Of a stretch of DNA of 40,625 bases, positions 27,940 through 40,625 are shown one piece after another. Positions within the stretch are counted from its first letter, which is position 1; every line of letters starts with the position of its first letter. Location: NCBI GenBank assembly GCA_947631855.1, contig CANRMX010000017.1, positions 1 to 40,625 on the forward strand, in the 5' to 3' direction. The translations under genes and the position numbers were made by a program. Below the pieces are notes generated by a model. That model had not been told where the DNA came from. It saw only the letters and a list, made by a program, of their open reading frames with translations, and made no database searches. This stretch comes from an uncultured Clostridia bacterium (GTDB taxonomy: Bacteria; Bacillota; Clostridia; Oscillospirales; Acutalibacteraceae).

Positions 27940-27995
27940 GCCGATTTTGAGTGCATTTTCTGCACGGAGGAGGAGGAGAGAAAAGGAGCGTTTTT

Positions 27996-30900
27996 ATGAA
28001 GAAGTGGACGCAGAGAATCGCGGCGCTGCTGCTGACGCTGGCCCTGATGTTCGGGATGCTGGCGGGCACCGTCTACGGCGAAGACACGTTCCCGGAGGGC
28101 ACGCCCTCCGAAACGGAAGCGCAGGCCGACAGCGGGATCATGCCCATTGCCGCTGGCGACAGCGTGGACATCTCGCAGTGGGTCAACGGCAGCAGCCTGA
28201 GCTACTACGAGCAAGGCGCGCCGTGGGTCGCAAGCGGCAGCACCGACGTGCTGATGCTCAGCTTTAGCAGCACCGCACCTGGGCTGGTTTATAAGGATTT
28301 AAAAAGTGCTGTAGAAAGTGGAACAAGATACACTTTTTCCCTTACCGGCCCTAAGGACGAGAAAATTCAACTACCAAAGGCACAGGTGGGCTACACCTTC
28401 CCGAAGGTCTACTGGGCCAACATGGGCGACACCATCGCCGAACATGGCCCCGGTGAATACAAGATCACCATGAAGGACGCCAATCATCCTGACAAGGAAT
28501 TCAACTTGTCATGCAAGATGGTCAAAGTCACCTTTAATGTTGGCACGGGCGGAACGTTTGCGGATGGGAAAGAATCCCACTTCAGCTACGGCACGGACAA
28601 CGTGACCCTCTCCAGCCTCAACGTGCCCGAGGTCACCGTGGACGAATCCGGGGAATTCTCCGGCTTCATCGGCTGGTCGAAAGAATCGGGCGTTAGCAAT
28701 TATAACAGCCTGTTCAAAAGCAAGCTCAGCGAATTGAAAAGTGAAAATGCGACGCTCTACGCCGCCTACGGCATCAAGTACGTGGCCAAGTATGAGTTGT
28801 ATAAGGATTCTTCCACTTCCGATCCTCTGCCGTTCACCGGGGCTTCTCTGTCTCTGGGCGCCTACACCTACGGCGCAGAGGTTCGGCCCTCCGTCACCAT
28901 CGTGGCCAAGAACGTGGGCAATCAGCCCGCGTCCTTCGCTTTCCCCATCAGCGCCCAGAACTGCACCTTCACCATCAGTGACGAGGATCGTGCGCTGGTT
29001 GCGGATGGCAAACTACCTGTGGGGAAGGAAGTCTCCGTAACGATCACCCCCAAGGCGAATCTGGCCGCGGGCAGCTATCAGGATACCATCGTGTTCCGGG
29101 AGGGCGGCATCCGGCAGATCAACATCACCTTCACTGTGAGCGAGGTGGATGTGACGATCAAACTCAAGGCTGGCGGCCTCACCAAGCCCTACGGCGAGAC
29201 CTGGACTTCTAAAAACATCACCGCAGAGGATGTGGAGATCGTCTCCGGCAACGTCCCCTTTAAAGACCTGGGCGTGGAATTTTACAGCCCGGCCTTTGAG
29301 GCCAACGCCAACGCCAACACCAACGGCGGCGCTTACAGCATCTCCATCGCCCGCACCACCGGCAGCTACAAGGTGGGCTGGGCAAGTGGCAGCAACGACA
29401 ACAAGATCACGGTCACGCCGGTAGAGCCCGCTGGGGCCGATACGGTCAACGCCAGCGGCGTACGTGCCGGGCACGATCTCTCCGAATCCACCCTCACCGG
29501 AAAGTTCCACCATGCCCTGCACCACGACTGGGCCGATGTGGCCGGCGAGCTGAAATGGGACGAGGAGCAGGAAGAATCTACCACCAATCTGACCGAGGGC
29601 GAGCACTCCTTTAAGTGGACGTTCACCCCCAGCGACAGTAACTACACCGTTGTCCACGGCACGGCCACGGTGAGCGTCAGCCCGAAGCTGCCCACGGCGA
29701 TCTCCGCCACTTCCGGGAACGAGTTCACCTACGGGGCATCTGCAAAGTATATGAGCTTTACAACTGACCGGCCGCCCACCGAGCAGGGCGAGATCACGGT
29801 GGAATATAAGCTGAAAGACGCGGATGAATCTGCCTACACCACCGACCGCCCCCGCAATGCCGGGATCTACGACGTGCGGGTCAGTGTGGCGGAATCCCAA
29901 AGATATGCCGCCGCCACCGCGCAATTTGAAATGACCATCGAGCCCCGGGAGCTTTCCTTCAGCGGCTATGGCCAAAACAAGGTGTATGACGGCACCACCG
30001 ACGCCGTGGTGCGAACGGGCACCTCCGGCACCATTGGCAACGACCAGGTGACCGTGGTGGCCCATGCGGCTTTCCAGACCCCGGACGTGGGGCAAGGCAA
30101 GCTCATCGAATACACCTGCACCCTCGAAGGCGCGCAGGCGGGCAACTACAAGCTGCACGGCAGCAGATTCCATGCCACGGGCACCATCACCCCCGCCACC
30201 ATTACGGCGGTGAAGCCCAAGGCGGCTATCACCAAGGGCTATGGGGCCACCGCCTCGCTGGATGTAAACCAGTTTAGCTTTACAGGGCTGGTGAACGGCG
30301 AAGGCCCCAGCGTGCTGAATCCCGAGTTCTTCTGCACCGGTACCGAGGCCGCCGCGGTGGTGGGTTCCTATCCCATCTATCTGGAGCTTCACGAGGGCAA
30401 CTACGTGCTGGCCGAGAGCCTTAAAAACATCGTGGGGCAGCTGGAAGTGACCAAAGTCACCCCGGTTCTCCTGACCGACACCCTCAACGCCAGCTACGGC
30501 CACACGGGCAATCCCCTGAGCACCGTACAGCTCAACGGCGTGTTCGTCAATCCCAACAACCACGACCTGACCGTGCCGGGCACTTTCGACTGGACCGAGC
30601 CCGAGACGGTGATGACCGACCCCAACAAGACCGGCAAATTCACCACCTCGGCGTGGAAATTCACTCCCGCCGACACGGACAACTATGATTTGCCCACCGC
30701 CACCCAGCCGGTGGAGATCACTCTGCTGGAAAAGCTGCCCATCGCGTTTACTGTCTCCGACCGGAATGACACTTATGATGGAAAGCCGCATAGCTTTACA
30801 GTTGGCGCGGATATCCAGATCACCGACGACACCGACACCGATAATAATAAGAAGATCGACCCCGAGAATCTGGCCGTGCTGGTGGAGTACCGGCACCATC

Positions 30901-33900
30901 AGGAGCTGGCCAAAAAGGCCCGGGCCATCGCCCTGTTCGCCTCCTGGGATACCTGGACCACCGACGCCCCCACGGACGCGGGCATCTACGAGGTGCGGGT
31001 GACAGTGGACGCGGGCGAGTACGAAGCCGCCCCCTACAACCGGGCCGACAATGTGCTCACCGCCACCCTGACCATCGACCGGGCCGACCCGGACACCGCA
31101 GAGGTGGAGGCGGAAATCACCGTGGGTGAGGGTACTATGCTCACCGGCGACGAGCTCACACCGCCCACCGGCGTGGACGGCGAACCCCTCAGCGGCACCT
31201 TCGCCTGGGAGAACGCCGGGGCGCCGATCACCAGCGACGGCGAGGTCTATCAGTGGGTGTTCACCCCCGAAAGCGACAACTACAATCTGGCCACGGGCCA
31301 CACCACCGTCCATCTGGCGGAGGATAAGCGCGTCCTCACCGGCACGGTGTACAACCTGCCCGACGCGCTGGGCTATACCGATTACGCCGTGATCGACGTG
31401 AAAGCGAGCAAACTCAACCCCGGGGACACCGTCACCTTCTACACCACGGAGAAGTGCATCAACGCGGAGAGCGCCACCGTCACCGTGGGCGAGGGCGATA
31501 CCCTCATCGTGGAGCTGGACGAGGACGCGTTGGACGACAACGACGGCGTGATCTACGCCAAAATCACCAGCAGCCAGAAGCACACGGCCAATGCGCTTGA
31601 ATACGGCCCCGAGGTGAGCTTTGCGGTTCCCACAACGGTGGAGCTCCCCATGGGCGGCACGGCCGATCTGACCGCGGAAGTGATCGATGGCTACACGCCG
31701 GAAAAAGTCACCTATACAGTGACGGACGACCAGGGCGGGCTCGTCACCTTGACGCACAATGACAACAGCCTGACGGCCACCCTCGAAAATAACGATGAAC
31801 GCATCGGCCACGTCCATGTGGTGGCGGAGCTGGTCTTTGCCCATCCCGATGCGGCCAACCACCCGGATGAGACCATCACCCTTTCCACCACCATCCATGT
31901 GAACGTGACGGGTGAGTTCGGCGAAGTCACCCTGGCGGTGGCGTCCGGCGAAGGGGCGCCCACTGTGGAAGTCTCCCAGGCCGATCAGGACGCGCTCAAG
32001 GAAACCTGTATCAACGACGACGATAAGGCGGAAATGGACAAGGGACTGGACGTGCACCTCCAGCTGACCGTGGACAATGCGGACACGGTTTCCACTGCCG
32101 ACAAGACGGCGGTGGAGAATTCCCTGGCAGAAGGCTATGCAGTGGGACAGTATCTGGAGATCGCCCTCACCAAGACCGTGGGCGAGAACGATCCCGAGGC
32201 GATCCCGAGCATCAAGCAGCCTATCACGCTGGTGATCGAAGTGCCGGCCGAGCTGCAAAAGGCCGACCGCACGTTCCAGGTCATCCAGGTGATCAACGGC
32301 AAAGCCACCGTGCTGGAGGACGAGGACAACAAGGCTGAGACCATCACGATTACGACCGGCCTGTTCGGAACCTATGCGGTTGTTTACAGCGACCCGGTTG
32401 GCGCGCTGACCGTGACCAAGACCGTCACCGGCGATGGCAACAAGGACAAAGCGTGGAACTTTACCGTGAAGCTGGATGACACGACCCTGAACGGTACGTA
32501 CGGTGAGATGACTTTTGCGAACGGCGTGGCCACCTTCACGTTGAAGCACGGCGAAACCAAGACCGCCAGCAAACTGCCCGCAGGCACCAGCTACACGGTC
32601 ACGGAGAAGGAAGCCAATCAGGACGGCTACACCACCACCAGCAAGGGCGCGCAGGGGAGCATCAAAAAGGATGCGACCGTCACCGCCGCCTTTACGAATG
32701 AAAAGAAGACGGAGCCGGAGCCTTCGCCCTCTCCGACCACGAATCCTACGGATACTCCGACCACGGAGCCTACGGATACTCCGACCACGGAGCCCACGGA
32801 TGCTCCGACCACGGAGCCCACGGATGCTCCGACCACGGAGCCCACGGATACTCCGACTACGGAACCCACGGATACTCCGACCACGGAGCCCACGGATACT
32901 CCGACTACAGAACCCACGGATACTCCGACTACGGAGCCTACGGATACTCCGACTACAGAGCCTACGGATACTCCGACTACAGAACCCACGGATACTCCGA
33001 CTACGGAGCCTACAGATACTCCGACTACGGAGCCTACGGATACTCCGACTACGGAACCCACGGATACTCCGACCACGGAGCCCACGGATACTCCGACTAC
33101 AGAACCCACGGATACTCCGACTACGGAGCCTACGGATACTCCGACTACAGAGCCTACGGATACTCCGACTACAGAACCCACGGATACTCCGACCACGGAG
33201 CCTACAGATGATCCGACCACGGCACCTACGGACGATCCAACCACGAAACCTACGGACGATCCGGGCACGGAGCCTACGGATGATCCAACCACGGCACCTA
33301 CAGATGATCCGACCGCCACACCCACGCCTACCCCCACACCTTCGGATGTGACGGTGGAAGTGGAGCAGGACGGTGATACGCCCGCCGTGGAGGTCTCCAA
33401 AGAGGATCAAGATGCCCTTAAGGATGCGTGCGTCAACGACGACGATAAGGCGCAGATGGCGCAGGGCGTGGAAGTTCATGTCCAGCTGACCGTGAAGGAT
33501 GCGGACCAAACCGCGACCGAGGCCGATCAGGACACGGTGGAGACCTGCCTGGAGGCCCATTGTCCCGGCTATGCAGTGGGGCAGTATCTCGACATCTCCA
33601 TCTTCAAGACCGTGGGCGAGCACGATCCCGAGGCGATTCCCAGTATTGAGAAGCCTATCACGCTGGTGATCGAAGTGCCAACCGAGCTGCAAAAGACTGG
33701 CCGCACTTTCCGGGTCATCCGGGTGCACGACGGCGCGGCCACCGTGCTGGAGGACAAGGACAACAAGGCTGAGACCATCACCATCGAGACGAACCTGTTC
33801 TCCACCTACGCTATCGCATACAGCGATACCACCGCTTCGCCTGCGCCCTCCACCAGCCCGTCCCCGACACCCACACCGACACCTGCACCCACCACGCTCG

Positions 33901-34199
33901 AGCCGTCGAAGGAGCCCTCGACGTCCCCTGCTCCCACCGAGCAGCCTACGCCTTCACCCTCCCCCGCGCCCTCGGAAGTGCCCACCGCTTCGCCTGCGCC
34001 TTCTGCGCAGCCCAGCACAGCACCCACCGGCACGCCTGCAACCAGCAGCACGGCTGCACCCTCGGCGGAACCCACCAGCCCGCAGACTGGCGAAAACAGC
34101 TTCCTGCTGTGGATCGTCCTGATGGGCGGGTCCGTCCTGGCCCTGGGCGGCGCGTATCTGTGGAGCCTGTTCGGCAGGAAGGGCCGTCACGCCCGATAA
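27996..34199 (+). CDS. Large cell-wall-anchored surface protein with repeats
   Basis: A 2067-residue secreted protein, probably an adhesin. An N-terminal signal peptide (KK, hydrophobic 9-25, cleavage near TVYGED) is followed by several beta-sandwich modules, among them a YDG-type module (NKVYDGTTD, about 650-740) and MBG-like modules. A pilin-type isopeptide-like module lies at about 1468-1573 (ALTVTKTVTGDG to AAFTNEK). An acidic module of about 155 residues occurs twice, at about 1309-1466 and 1784-1944 (shared GYAVGQYL and PEAIPSI). Between them, at 1585-1776, are 24 Thr/Pro octads such as TDTPTTEP. A Pro/Ser-rich wall-spanning stretch leads to the sorting signal SPQTGE (about 2028), a hydrophobic span and an RKGRHAR tail. 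SPxTG signals are used by clostridial sortases. The ATG at 27996 follows AAAGGAG; no sortase gene is nearby. AT-richer patches near 28280-28380 suggest mosaic origin. Confidence 0.9.
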   Translation: MKKWTQRIAALLLTLALMFGMLAGTVYGEDTFPEGTPSETEAQADSGIMPIAAGDSVDISQWVNGSSLSYYEQGAPWVASGSTDVLMLSFSSTAPGLVYKDLKSAVESGTRYTFSLTGPKDEKIQLPKAQVGYTFPKVYWANMGDTIAEHGPGEYKITMKDANHPDKEFNLSCKMVKVTFNVGTGGTFADGKESHFSYGTDNVTLSSLNVPEVTVDESGEFSGFIGWSKESGVSNYNSLFKSKLSELKSENATLYAAYGIKYVAKYELYKDSSTSDPLPFTGASLSLGAYTYGAEVRPSVTIVAKNVGNQPASFAFPISAQNCTFTISDEDRALVADGKLPVGKEVSVTITPKANLAAGSYQDTIVFREGGIRQINITFTVSEVDVTIKLKAGGLTKPYGETWTSKNITAEDVEIVSGNVPFKDLGVEFYSPAFEANANANTNGGAYSISIARTTGSYKVGWASGSNDNKITVTPVEPAGADTVNASGVRAGHDLSESTLTGKFHHALHHDWADVAGELKWDEEQEESTTNLTEGEHSFKWTFTPSDSNYTVVHGTATVSVSPKLPTAISATSGNEFTYGASAKYMSFTTDRPPTEQGEITVEYKLKDADESAYTTDRPRNAGIYDVRVSVAESQRYAAATAQFEMTIEPRELSFSGYGQNKVYDGTTDAVVRTGTSGTIGNDQVTVVAHAAFQTPDVGQGKLIEYTCTLEGAQAGNYKLHGSRFHATGTITPATITAVKPKAAITKGYGATASLDVNQFSFTGLVNGEGPSVLNPEFFCTGTEAAAVVGSYPIYLELHEGNYVLAESLKNIVGQLEVTKVTPVLLTDTLNASYGHTGNPLSTVQLNGVFVNPNNHDLTVPGTFDWTEPETVMTDPNKTGKFTTSAWKFTPADTDNYDLPTATQPVEITLLEKLPIAFTVSDRNDTYDGKPHSFTVGADIQITDDTDTDNNKKIDPENLAVLVEYRHHQELAKKARAIALFASWDTWTTDAPTDAGIYEVRVTVDAGEYEAAPYNRADNVLTATLTIDRADPDTAEVEAEITVGEGTMLTGDELTPPTGVDGEPLSGTFAWENAGAPITSDGEVYQWVFTPESDNYNLATGHTTVHLAEDKRVLTGTVYNLPDALGYTDYAVIDVKASKLNPGDTVTFYTTEKCINAESATVTVGEGDTLIVELDEDALDDNDGVIYAKITSSQKHTANALEYGPEVSFAVPTTVELPMGGTADLTAEVIDGYTPEKVTYTVTDDQGGLVTLTHNDNSLTATLENNDERIGHVHVVAELVFAHPDAANHPDETITLSTTIHVNVTGEFGEVTLAVASGEGAPTVEVSQADQDALKETCINDDDKAEMDKGLDVHLQLTVDNADTVSTADKTAVENSLAEGYAVGQYLEIALTKTVGENDPEAIPSIKQPITLVIEVPAELQKADRTFQVIQVINGKATVLEDEDNKAETITITTGLFGTYAVVYSDPVGALTVTKTVTGDGNKDKAWNFTVKLDDTTLNGTYGEMTFANGVATFTLKHGETKTASKLPAGTSYTVTEKEANQDGYTTTSKGAQGSIKKDATVTAAFTNEKKTEPEPSPSPTTNPTDTPTTEPTDTPTTEPTDAPTTEPTDAPTTEPTDTPTTEPTDTPTTEPTDTPTTEPTDTPTTEPTDTPTTEPTDTPTTEPTDTPTTEPTDTPTTEPTDTPTTEPTDTPTTEPTDTPTTEPTDTPTTEPTDTPTTEPTDTPTTEPTDTPTTEPTDDPTTAPTDDPTTKPTDDPGTEPTDDPTTAPTDDPTATPTPTPTPSDVTVEVEQDGDTPAVEVSKEDQDALKDACVNDDDKAQMAQGVEVHVQLTVKDADQTATEADQDTVETCLEAHCPGYAVGQYLDISIFKTVGEHDPEAIPSIEKPITLVIEVPTELQKTGRTFRVIRVHDGAATVLEDKDNKAETITIETNLFSTYAIAYSDTTASPAPSTSPSPTPTPTPAPTTLEPSKEPSTSPAPTEQPTPSPSPAPSEVPTASPAPSAQPSTAPTGTPATSSTAAPSAEPTSPQTGENSFLLWIVLMGGSVLALGGAYLWSLFGRKGRHAR
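32748..33323 (+). repeat. 24-bp coding minisatellite (24 units)
   Basis: Nineteen tandem 24-base units encode TD(T/A)PTTEP, followed by five diverged units of the TDDPTTAP type. Units differ mostly at silent positions, so the array is large and imperfect. A change in unit number keeps the frame and would alter the length of the stalk. Confidence 0.95.
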
Positions 34200-38978: not shown

Positions 38979-40271
38979 TTACGGGAGGGAGATGTAGTCC
39001 GAGATACAGTCGTACCAGTGGACGTAGGTCTCCCCGTTGACGGTGATCCGTTCGCTATGGGGGAGCTGCTCGCTCCACTTCTTCCCGTAGCGGGCGAAGG
39101 CCCAATCGTCCCGGTTGAAGCGCCTCCACAGCACCGTGCGTCCGCTGCGGTCCAGATAGGCCTCGGTGGCGATGGCGTCGTCGAAGGTGAGCAGGTTCAT
39201 CACCCGCACGGTGTCATAGGTCTTGCCGCCGATCTCCACCGTGCAGCGGTCCACAATGTCGATGGTGTCCTTCTGCGCGGGGCCGGTGACGACGCTGCCC
39301 GCCCGGCGGATCAGCCCCTTGGGGGCGATTTCCACCTCGTGGCCGCAGTTGTCCTCGCCGTAGCCCCAGTTGCCCAGGAACGCATCGCCGTCCAGGAACG
39401 TGAACAGCTTCTTCACGCCGTTTTCCTGGTGGCACTCCGCCAGGAATCGGCAATGGGTGTCGGTGAGCTGGGCCACGAAGCTGCGGTGGATCACTTCCTC
39501 CCGGCCGGTGCGGAAATAATCCTGGGTGTCGTGCTGGGTCACTTCGATCTCCACGCCCTCGATCCCGTGGATCTCGGCCCGGCCCGTCACGCGCATTTCG
39601 GTCAATTCCGTGCGCTCACCCGTGGGCCGGTCATAGAGCCCCCAGCGGATGTGCTCGCCCAGCCTGGGGACAAGCATCCAACTGTCCAGCTCCTCCCAAC
39701 GGACGGGGAATGGGGCGTCGGCCATCGGGGTGATGGTGTATGGGGGCAGAATCTTCGGTAAATCGTGCATAGTCGTTTCTCCTTTCATGGGGGCGGATCC
39801 CGGCGAAAGCTGCCGCCGCAGGTTCTCTTTCGCGGTGAACAGGCGGCTTTTTACGGTGCCCAGCGGGATGCCCAGCCGGGCGGCGATGTCCCGCTGGGGC
39901 AGCCCCTTCCAGTAGTAGAGGAACAGGATCTGCTGCTCCCGGCTGGCCAGCCGCTCCACGGCGTCGCCCAATACGGTGGATTCGCTGGGCCCAAACCGGG
40001 TGTCCACCAGCTCCCGCTCGGTCAGCGCCTCCAGCGGGATCTCCCACTTCCGGGCCCGGGCGCGAAACCAGTCGGCGCACTTGCTGCGGGCGATCCCGAT
40101 GAGCCATGGGCGGAAAGAATCTTCGCGCTTGAGCTGGGGGAACTTCTCGAAGGCGGTCAGGTACACCTCCTGCAGGACGTCCTCGGCGTCGGGCAGCGAG
40201 GGGATCTTGAATTTGACATACCGCTCCGCCGCCGATCGGTACGCCCGCAGCAGCGCTTCAAAGCTCTCCAA
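38979..40271 (-). CDS. ECF sigma-70 factor fused to a C-terminal domain of unknown function
   Basis: A 430-residue protein. Residues 1-160 are an extracytoplasmic-function sigma factor: region 2 (FEALLRAYRS, DAEDVLQEVYLTAF, SFRPWLIGIARSKCADW) and region 4 (ASREQQILFLYYWKG, RDIAARLGIPLGTVKSRLF). Residues 168-430 are a soluble, tryptophan- and aspartate-rich domain (ELDSWMLVPRLGEHIRW, LTDTHCRFL, FTFLDGDAFLGNWGYGEDNCG, WRRFNRDDWAF, YVHWYDCISDYI) that I do not recognise as a named family. The likely start is TTG at 40271, 7 bases after GGAGG; the in-frame ATG at 40328 has no ribosome-binding site and would add 19 residues not seen in sigma factors. No anti-sigma gene is adjacent, so the C-terminal domain may control the sigma part. 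Confidence 0.8.
   Translation of the reverse strand: MESFEALLRAYRSAAERYVKFKIPSLPDAEDVLQEVYLTAFEKFPQLKREDSFRPWLIGIARSKCADWFRARARKWEIPLEALTERELVDTRFGPSESTVLGDAVERLASREQQILFLYYWKGLPQRDIAARLGIPLGTVKSRLFTAKENLRRQLSPGSAPMKGETTMHDLPKILPPYTITPMADAPFPVRWEELDSWMLVPRLGEHIRWGLYDRPTGERTELTEMRVTGRAEIHGIEGVEIEVTQHDTQDYFRTGREEVIHRSFVAQLTDTHCRFLAECHQENGVKKLFTFLDGDAFLGNWGYGEDNCGHEVEIAPKGLIRRAGSVVTGPAQKDTIDIVDRCTVEIGGKTYDTVRVMNLLTFDDAIATEAYLDRSGRTVLWRRFNRDDWAFARYGKKWSEQLPHSERITVNGETYVHWYDCISDYISLP
39770..39785 (-). promoter_or_regulatory. Internal ribosome-binding site and ATG in the sigma fusion
   Basis: Inside the fused gene, on the minus strand, AAAGGAG (39785-39779) is 8 bases before an in-frame ATG (39770). 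It falls exactly at the junction of the two domains, so a separate 263-residue C-terminal protein (38979-39770) could be made. Confidence 0.55.
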
Positions 40272-40329
40272 AAGCCTCCCTCCTTGTATTATAGAGTAGT
40301 AGTTTTTGATGACCCTCTCCAAGGTCATG

Positions 40330-40338
40330 TGCTACAAT
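40330..40338 (+). promoter_or_regulatory. Extended -10 box at the IS110 left end
   Basis: TGC followed by TACAAT. No -35 box is found at the right distance. It would start a transcript near 40345, just before the first stem of the proposed bridge RNA. Confidence 0.45.
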
Positions 40339-40344
40339 GTAAGG

Positions 40345-40505
40345 GATGCTGTGGATTGGTTCTTGCCTCCTACCGCAAGACGGTTCAAAAAAGGCTCCGA
40401 CCACAGCCCCTTGCAGTTTTGTTGATCAGTTAGATACCGCCAGACGGTTGATGTAGAACAAGGTTACAAGGCAGGGTGTTCTGTGGATACAGCATCAAAT
40501 CTATC
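40345..40505 (+). ncRNA. Candidate IS110 bridge RNA
   Basis: Two stem-loop groups lie between the -10 box and the transposase. First: GCTGTGG (40348-40354) pairs with CCACAGC (40401-40407), enclosing TCTTGC-N8-GCAAGA (40361-40380). Second: TTGATG (40448-40453) pairs with CATCAA (40493-40498), enclosing AGAACA (40455-40460) with TGTTCT (40477-40482). In IS110-group elements the region between the left end and the transposase encodes a bridge RNA with two loops, one pairing target and one pairing donor DNA. Position, length and two-loop layout agree; loop pairing could not be tested without the right end and an empty site. Confidence 0.55.
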
Positions 40506-40521
40506 ATCTGGAGGTTCGTGT

Positions 40522-40625
40522 ATGGTTTGTATTGGTATCGATGTCTCGAAGGACAAGCATGACTGTTTTATCCTGTCCTCGGAAGGTCAAGTGTTGGCAG
40601 ACGTGTTCACCATCCCCAACAGTAT
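40522..40625 (+). CDS. IS110-family transposase, N-terminal fragment (cut by window end)
   Basis: The first 34 codons read MVCIGIDVSKDKHDCFIL and onward. GIDVSKDKHD is the first motif of the DEDD/RuvC-like catalytic domain of IS110 transposases, containing the first acidic residue. GGAGG (40510-40514) is 7 bases before the ATG. The gene runs off the right edge, so whether it is intact is unknown. Confidence 0.85.
   Translation, partial: MVCIGIDVSKDKHDCFILSSEGQVLADVFTIPNS

Follow-up and report, generated by a model that had tools for sequence, protein, structure and literature searches.

The window (the whole stretch of DNA analysed here, 40,625 nt) corresponds to contig C17 in a genome of 59 contigs that is 81% complete, and its right edge cuts an insertion sequence. 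A secreted-looking 2082-aa protein with DUF7601 is encoded at 27951-34199 and contains a Thr/Pro-rich region and about 24 copies of a 24-base repeat (32731-33314); genes for a CoaBC-like flavoprotein, a type III pantothenate kinase, a trypsin/PDZ protease and a PD40 propeller protein follow in a row between 34237 and 38908. Next comes, on the minus strand, the gene of a sigma-70-type factor with regions 2 and 4 (38979-40271), whose likely start is the TTG at 40271; a longer ORF, up to 40328, enters the insertion sequence. The host DNA at 40270-40284 begins, on the minus strand, with AGGAGGGAGG, likely the Shine-Dalgarno (SD) region of the sigma-factor gene, which the insertion would thus have hit.

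The left part of an IS110-group element occupies 40285-40625 on the plus strand. It comprises 237 nt of structured non-coding DNA (40285-40521) and the start of a transposase gene (40522-40625) with its own SD (GGAGG, 40510-40514). The initial annotation had recognised an IS110 transposase here, and rightly so: the gene starts at 40522 and gives a partial PF01548 match, which covers just the first 30 positions of the profile and stays below the family cut-off (the gene being cut by the contig end at 40625). It had also described a structured leader of 180 bases; structured non-coding DNA does precede the transposase, but that span starts late, the element beginning at 40285. The contig stops inside the element because the element is repeated in the genome, where nine left ends and nine right-end sequences were found, mostly at contig ends. 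A sister copy on contig C14 (G000:C14, L015) retains the transposase gene as a 416-codon open frame encoding a full IS110 transposase (PF01548, E 1.5e-39; PF02371, E 2e-23; NF033542, E 3e-62 and 210.7 bits against a cut-off of 140). This protein aligns to the IS621 structure 8wt6 (E 1e-22) with D7, E60, D103, D106 and S312 placed on IS621 residues that we take to be catalytic, and the closest transposases found belong to uncultured Oscillospiraceae and Clostridia MAGs, among which the host itself probably falls. Elsewhere in the same genome there is a fragment of a second, different IS110-type transposase (G000:C38:1111-1365, minus strand, L024; E 1.6e-13), and a weak PF01548 match below cut-off in a 1099-codon frame (G000:C5:9276-9479, L025) is, judged by eye, probably no transposase.

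The right end was supplied by sister copies and relatives, the window copy itself being cut at the contig end; together they give both ends for 73 elements, with a left end of 237 nt and a right end of about 130 nt. The nine left flanks in this genome are variable up to ...CCT and then all read TGTATTATAG, so that the copies diverge directly left of CCTTG. Right ends read ...TTCTA, followed by ATAGTTAGTCT in seven of the eight that continue into host DNA (the eighth, C49, lacks the ATA) and then by variable sequence; relatives have the same end layout. This layout therefore places a CT core on both sides of the element, at 40283-40284 in the window, as the last two letters of the left target flank (40270-40284, plus strand).

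The right ends and the empty site of a relative agree on this core. For copy L047 (genome G005) the empty site is found in G010 (L161) as GCCATCACGTC-CT-TTCTACATCCCG with the junction unchanged; G001 also spans the joined L047 query, at 88%, and an uninterrupted copy of a dispersed repeat in the window's own genome (L043, contig C13) has the same junction. Insertion at a short core with no other duplication is thus seen for a relative's copy (L161 versus L047) and for sister copies (uninterrupted L043) rather than for the window copy. The comparison with an empty site that had been proposed earlier succeeded for L047, where it fixed the element limits and the CT core; for the insertion in the window, the search of 29 genus genomes from the sigma-factor side returned no clear orthologue, matches outside the genome itself measuring at most 135 nt. 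Copy C57 sits before dnaG. At that gene start, 20 of 27 congener loci were compared and each of the 20 has a purine-rich SD (AAAGGAGG in 12), with no element end in the approximately 70 nt inspected at each. The end of a dGTPase-like gene precedes the dnaG site in L167 (G004), and C34, which has an HD-domain dGTPase-like gene, is probably the other side of the C57 insertion; the C57 right guide (see below) does not fit this flank beyond the core. By reading, the neighbours in the flanks of L047/L117 and L050 look like conjugation-module genes, and the insertion sequences may spread on conjugative elements.

Alignment of 55 left ends gave a consensus structure in which 98.5% of cells pair, against at most 50% in slid controls. 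Changes on both sides were counted at 10 pairs and 70 cells, compared with shuffled means of 4.8 and 25.2, controls that overstate independence given that the aligned left ends are kin. The first stem-loop of the initial annotation (40348-40407) was recovered exactly and forms the target-binding stem-loop, with arms at 40348-40359/40397-40407 and an inner hairpin at 40372-40375/40381-40384. The second one (40448-40498) did not survive: 73.7% of its cells pair, 433 of 500 column shuffles reach as much, and its covariation score falls below all 500. The conserved domain lies instead at 40409-40476, where an outer stem (40409-40414/40471-40476) encloses three nested helices (40419-40422/40466-40469, 40429-40431/40457-40459 and 40436-40439/40445-40448), two pairs showing 19 and 21 double-sided changes; we assign donor binding to it. 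The compensatory changes anticipated among relatives were found in the inner hairpin of the target loop and in this donor stem. Ahead of both domains, the predicted RNA has a 5′ stem-loop (40299-40335; ATGACC/GGTCAT, outer GTAGT/GCTAC) for which relatives show matching changes by eye (GCCC/GGGC, GTCC/GGAC). More structure than expected by chance is claimed because of this comparative evidence, the single-sequence fold alone being modest (z -2.2; 5 of 200 shuffles equally good). Overall, a bridge RNA of about 200 nt is predicted at roughly 40299-40500. Rfam gave no match at gathering score in the window, and none at E ≤ 5 in 40250-40530. The conserved RNA is in the left end, not in the right end as in the IS1111 group.

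A promoter for this RNA is best sought at the junction of the joined ends. An extended -10 box had been proposed at TACAAT (40333-40338), a hexamer that is rarely kept (89 rows: TACACT 64, TATACT 9, TACAAT 3, other 4, no match 9) and that lies inside the 5′ hairpin of the predicted RNA. Joining the ends into a circle would instead bring a right-end TTGACT to 17 bp, across the core, from TATTAT at 40287-40292, and all 73 elements having both ends present TTGACT, TTGACA or TTGATT with TATTAT or TATAAT at the 17 bp spacing. IS621 forms a promoter on excision (PMC11208160), and by analogy with it the joined circle ends here would make a promoter. The RNA would then probably start near 40299, and not near 40345 as first suggested.

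Outward transcription from the left end was also considered; a TATAAT exists on the minus strand, where inspection by eye showed no -35, and neither strand of the L048 left end gave a promoter-like site in a scan. After insertion the gene keeps AGGAGG-like letters, before which the element puts ...TATAATACA. With no outward promoter found, the likely effect on the gene would therefore be separation from its native promoter. Read outward, the left end (40272-40328 of the window on the minus strand; L016 from 142) is open and in frame with both the sigma-factor gene and dnaG (MTLERVIKNYYSIIQGG...), and gene callers may therefore give these two genes false N-terminal extensions.

Within the target loop, the left guide TTCTTGCCTCCT (40360-40371), whose last two bases are the core, matches the left flanks, and the right guide TTCAAAAAAG (40384-40393; reverse complement CTTTTTTGAA, whose first two letters are the core) is complementary to the right flanks. 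The 95 loci parsed, 80 from a search for transposase relatives and 15 from other sources, gave 87 element rows for measuring agreement, two of them from L088; unused were L095, L126 and L140 (no target loop), L151 (false match only), L145 and L053 (no left boundary) and L122-L124 (guide unparsed). Loci L084 and L086 belong to a cultured host, Papillibacter cinnamivorans DSM 12816. Left guides fit their own flanks in 8.11 of 12 letters versus 6.43 when permuted (z 13.3; 83/87 rows, excluding the nested L085, L117 at the same site as L047, and L104 and L107 with cut flanks). Right guides do so in 7.05 of 10 versus 5.29 (z 16.0; 66/87 rows, further excluding rows whose right end was incomplete or whose right guide could not be parsed, and keeping L100, whose right end looks mis-parsed). 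No permutation out of 10,000 was as high on either side, counts that overstate independence in related elements. Left agreement stands above cross-pairs at positions -9 to -3 (70% versus 36% at -5, 58% versus 29% at -7), the last three letters of the left guide hardly varying, and right agreement covers the core plus five letters (7 nt) and drops to background from the next letter. The own left guide is the best of 70 distinct ones for just 24 of 83 targets, and the own right guide for 43 of 66 among 41. In the window copy, the left flank fits its left guide in 8 of 12 letters. L085 (Lapin-030 MAG, approximately 2620-2825) has a left-end fragment and, after it, a complete element with a left flank identical to that element's left guide (TATAAGCCCCCT), as though guide DNA had acted as the left target or two copies had recombined.

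The donor domain appears to read the ends of the element itself. Its left guide AGTTAG (40428-40433) matches the right end ...AATAGTTAGT before the core over about 6 nt only, stopping before it would pass through the core, and the A/G switch in this guide agrees with the right-end base in 72 of 74 rows (2 disagree, 1 further row being unresolved). Its right guide ACAAG (40458-40462) pairs with the core and left end CTTGT, and the left-end base after the core switches together with its RNA partner in 82/82 resolved rows (T-A 59, C-G 23; five unresolved). Both loops therefore match what they were expected to match, own guide-flank pairs beating 10,000 of 10,000 re-pairings, which supports the bridge RNA with a target loop and a donor loop put forward in the initial annotation.

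A second set was collected with a covariance model, which found matches in 40 of 391 genomes of the class and 10 of 398 of the phylum, the own genome included. Left guides of 21 elements fit their flanks in 8.33 of 11 letters versus 6.13, with 0 of 20,000 permutations as high. These elements are 13 of 22 single rows (seven without a parsed guide, the mis-parsed L221 and L288 being excluded) plus one copy chosen by us from each of eight multi-copy genomes; L218 and L223, from two sister genomes, may represent a single insertion, L264 and L265 have a flank in common, and L203 fits a first-set row as well. It could be argued that the leader is just the 5′ untranslated region of an IS110 gene, with hairpins that regulate transposase translation and incidental guide-like matches, as its place directly before the transposase SD and start and a single-sequence fold mildly better than shuffles would allow. 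We give this very little credence, for the guide-flank agreement far exceeds re-pairings in both sets, the donor switches track the element ends and the right agreement ends after 7 nt, within the 4-7 nt of IS621 (PMC11208160).

Where the bridge RNA would send the element is suggested by the left flanks, which read AGGAGN...ATG on the minus strand. In 49 of 79 left flanks an ATG that opens an ORF (minimum 60 codons, 40 for an open frame) stands 6-15 nt past the core; the same holds for 4,393 of 89,806 background positions (4.9%; nominal p 8e-44, the background positions overlapping) and for 1 of 64 right flanks. Counting GTG and TTG as well, at offsets of 3-14, the figures are 53 of 80 versus 13.7% at all positions, 14.4% after AG and 229 of 1,258 at SD-like hexamers of the same flanks. 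In the second set 38 of 61 fall at the SD offset versus a background of 5.8%, a count that took in 68 matches rather than all covariance-model matches, omitted seven without a boundary and scored as misses four G707 rows with a wrong boundary and L288 at a contig edge. With the boundary corrected, the G707 copies are 4/4 at an ATG (right flanks unparsed).

The guides themselves carry the complementary signal. Most of the 73 distinct left guides end in C[TC]CCT (C 89%, T/C 98%, C 99%, C and T 100%) and most of the 49 right guides have CTTT (T 78% and 73% after the core), and joined they read CTCCTTT, the letters of the 16S rRNA 3′ end in relatives (6 of 30 genomes yielded the 3′ end GGATCACCTCCTTTCT, which was confirmed as rRNA in L296). 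The guides of G690 (TCACCT|CA), G956 (TCACCT|CT) and G707 (TTTTCT|CCTTAA) are other registers of the same SD. Insertion would usually fall in the SD of a gene, and in one orientation, because most guides are anti-SD at the core.

More than a third of insertions lie away from starts recognised by the test. Among the nine left ends of the own genome, four are at gene starts (the sigma factor with TTG, dnaG and two others), four are in a dispersed repeat and one is ambiguous; G530 (3/3 copies) and G1060 (6/7, the seventh ambiguous) look repeat-targeted, with guides matching the repeat-like flanks. One may then suppose that the bridge RNA is real and that its apparent preference for SDs reflects dispersed repeats or CCTCCTTT-rich terminators instead of translation starts. 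The four own left ends sit in the repeat AAAGTTCTTTTTGC[CT]TCCT, which has its uninterrupted copy at G000:C13, and together with G530, G1060 and a few flanks that look terminator-like by eye they speak for such a reading. We consider it quite improbable, as 49/79 flanks have an ATG with an ORF at SD spacing against 4.9% of background, and as the ATG is at its expected place in all copies of G561 (6/6), G690 (8/8), G956 (6/6), G889 (3/3) and G707 (4/4), lineages with transposases 37-69% identical to that of C14 over main stretches; the frames are shorter than 60 codons in one G690 and three G956 copies, and G515 has 1 of 2. The dispersed repeat, AAAGTTCTTTTTGC[CT]TCCTTTTTCTTTCAAGAAAAAGG, is palindromic on its right side and makes up a second target class in the own genome, flanking C14, C8, C42 and C47 on the left and C5, C28, C34, C35 and C49 on the right; the C34 right flank has been attributed to the dnaG site as well.

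Intergenic insertions are generally tolerated, and SD-like flanks could in principle arise unguided, insertions elsewhere being lethal and only SD-proximal intergenic ones surviving. Such an origin is highly improbable here: beyond the SD, flank letters track the guide of each element, gene starts lie to the left (1/64 on the right), and most guides carry the anti-SD themselves. Guides of the wider family thus appear to point mostly to the ribosome-binding site before bacterial genes, and in some lineages to repeats.

Bridge RNAs were already known in the IS110 family (PMC11208160), so what had been announced as a new programmable recombinase is a further bridge-RNA element of a kind already described, with a target rule that is unusually clear. 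IS621 of E. coli resembles our element in its DEDD plus PF02371 recombinase, in an RNA encoded by the left end (LE) with a 5′ stem-loop and target and donor loops, and in its guide strands, CT core, junction promoter and pairing of 8-9 nt on the left and 4-7 nt on the right. It differs in RNA sequence, in that the donor domain here has several nested helices, in its target (REP in IS621, mostly the SD region here) and in a transposase that is distantly similar (E 1e-22). At the sequence level, the features of the group, namely a DEDD plus PF02371 transposase, a predicted left-end bridge RNA, insertion at a core and a putative junction promoter, are all present. The seekRNA of IS1111/IS110 elements (ISEc11, ISEc21) is likewise a non-coding RNA specifying the target, and a reprogrammable one (PMC11187229); IS1111 members have their non-coding region downstream of tnp and subterminal inverted repeats (7-17 bp), whereas the RNA here is upstream. 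TIGR-Tas (PMC12045711) gives a weak profile match to the transposase (E 6.1e-6, 26 bits, cut-off 100) and differs from the full recombinase found here, which has both IS110 domains.

IS900, an IS110-family element of Mycobacterium avium subsp. paratuberculosis, has the reported target motif CATGNNNNNNTCTCCTT (PMC8141618), which on the other strand becomes AAGGAGA-N6-CATG, the same motif in the same orientation and at similar spacing as here. IS900 belongs to another phylum, and the likeness lies in its target motif. An IS900-like target would read CAT-N-CTCCTT and have the gene start to the left of the element; this geometry is seen in 49 of 79 clade members, the window site having a TTG start. 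A translation-signal reading of IS900 was reportedly given by Doran in 1997. Given the published motif, an IS110 element inserted at a site of this sort is not a new observation. A search of the literature on bridge RNA, IS110 and IS900 in relation to SD or start signals, with preprints and most subscription papers outside it, found no guide-based explanation of SD targeting, as judged from titles, the openings of abstracts and selected passages; relative to the literature searched, an explanation at the level of the guide, and the extent of the habit among Clostridia, appear to be new.

We are highly confident that the window ends in the left end of an IS110-group element with a bridge RNA whose guides mostly send insertion to SDs. 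Its boundaries, core and empty site, the agreement of guides with flanks and donor ends, the covariation of stems and the position at SDs are documented here by sequence comparison, and from IS621 we infer the circle, its promoter, the RNA-protein complex and recombination. The element would excise as a circle whose joined ends form the promoter TTGACT-17-TATTAT, transcribing the RNA, and the RNA would bind the DEDD transposase and recombine the circle with a target at the shared CT core, catalysis being presumed. On the left, the guide would read the flank's top strand; on the right, it would pair with about 7 nt of the flank including the core; and the second domain of the RNA would read the element's own ends. 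An anti-SD core of the guides (C[TC]CCT left, CTTT right) would usually bring insertion into an SD in one orientation and leave an intact-looking SD behind. A rather unlikely extension is that a broad IS110 lineage settled on the anti-SD as a general address, its guide letters being kept while neighbours vary and the register having shifted at least twice; the 16S-tail-like guide could then also pair with SDs of mRNAs, starting with the transposase's GGAGG at 40510-40514, and a single loop would both choose the target and damp transposase translation.

These observations add a well-supported bridge-RNA clade, found mostly in gut Clostridia, in which about 70 natural guide variants can each be set beside its target, a resource useful to work out guide-target rules. 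They offer a guide-level explanation of why IS110 elements insert at start signals of translation, a habit to which the IS900 motif points, and the lineages with guides fitting dispersed repeats make natural retargeting open to study. For the host, insertions at SDs would part a gene from its promoter with the SD kept, and may alter its expression.
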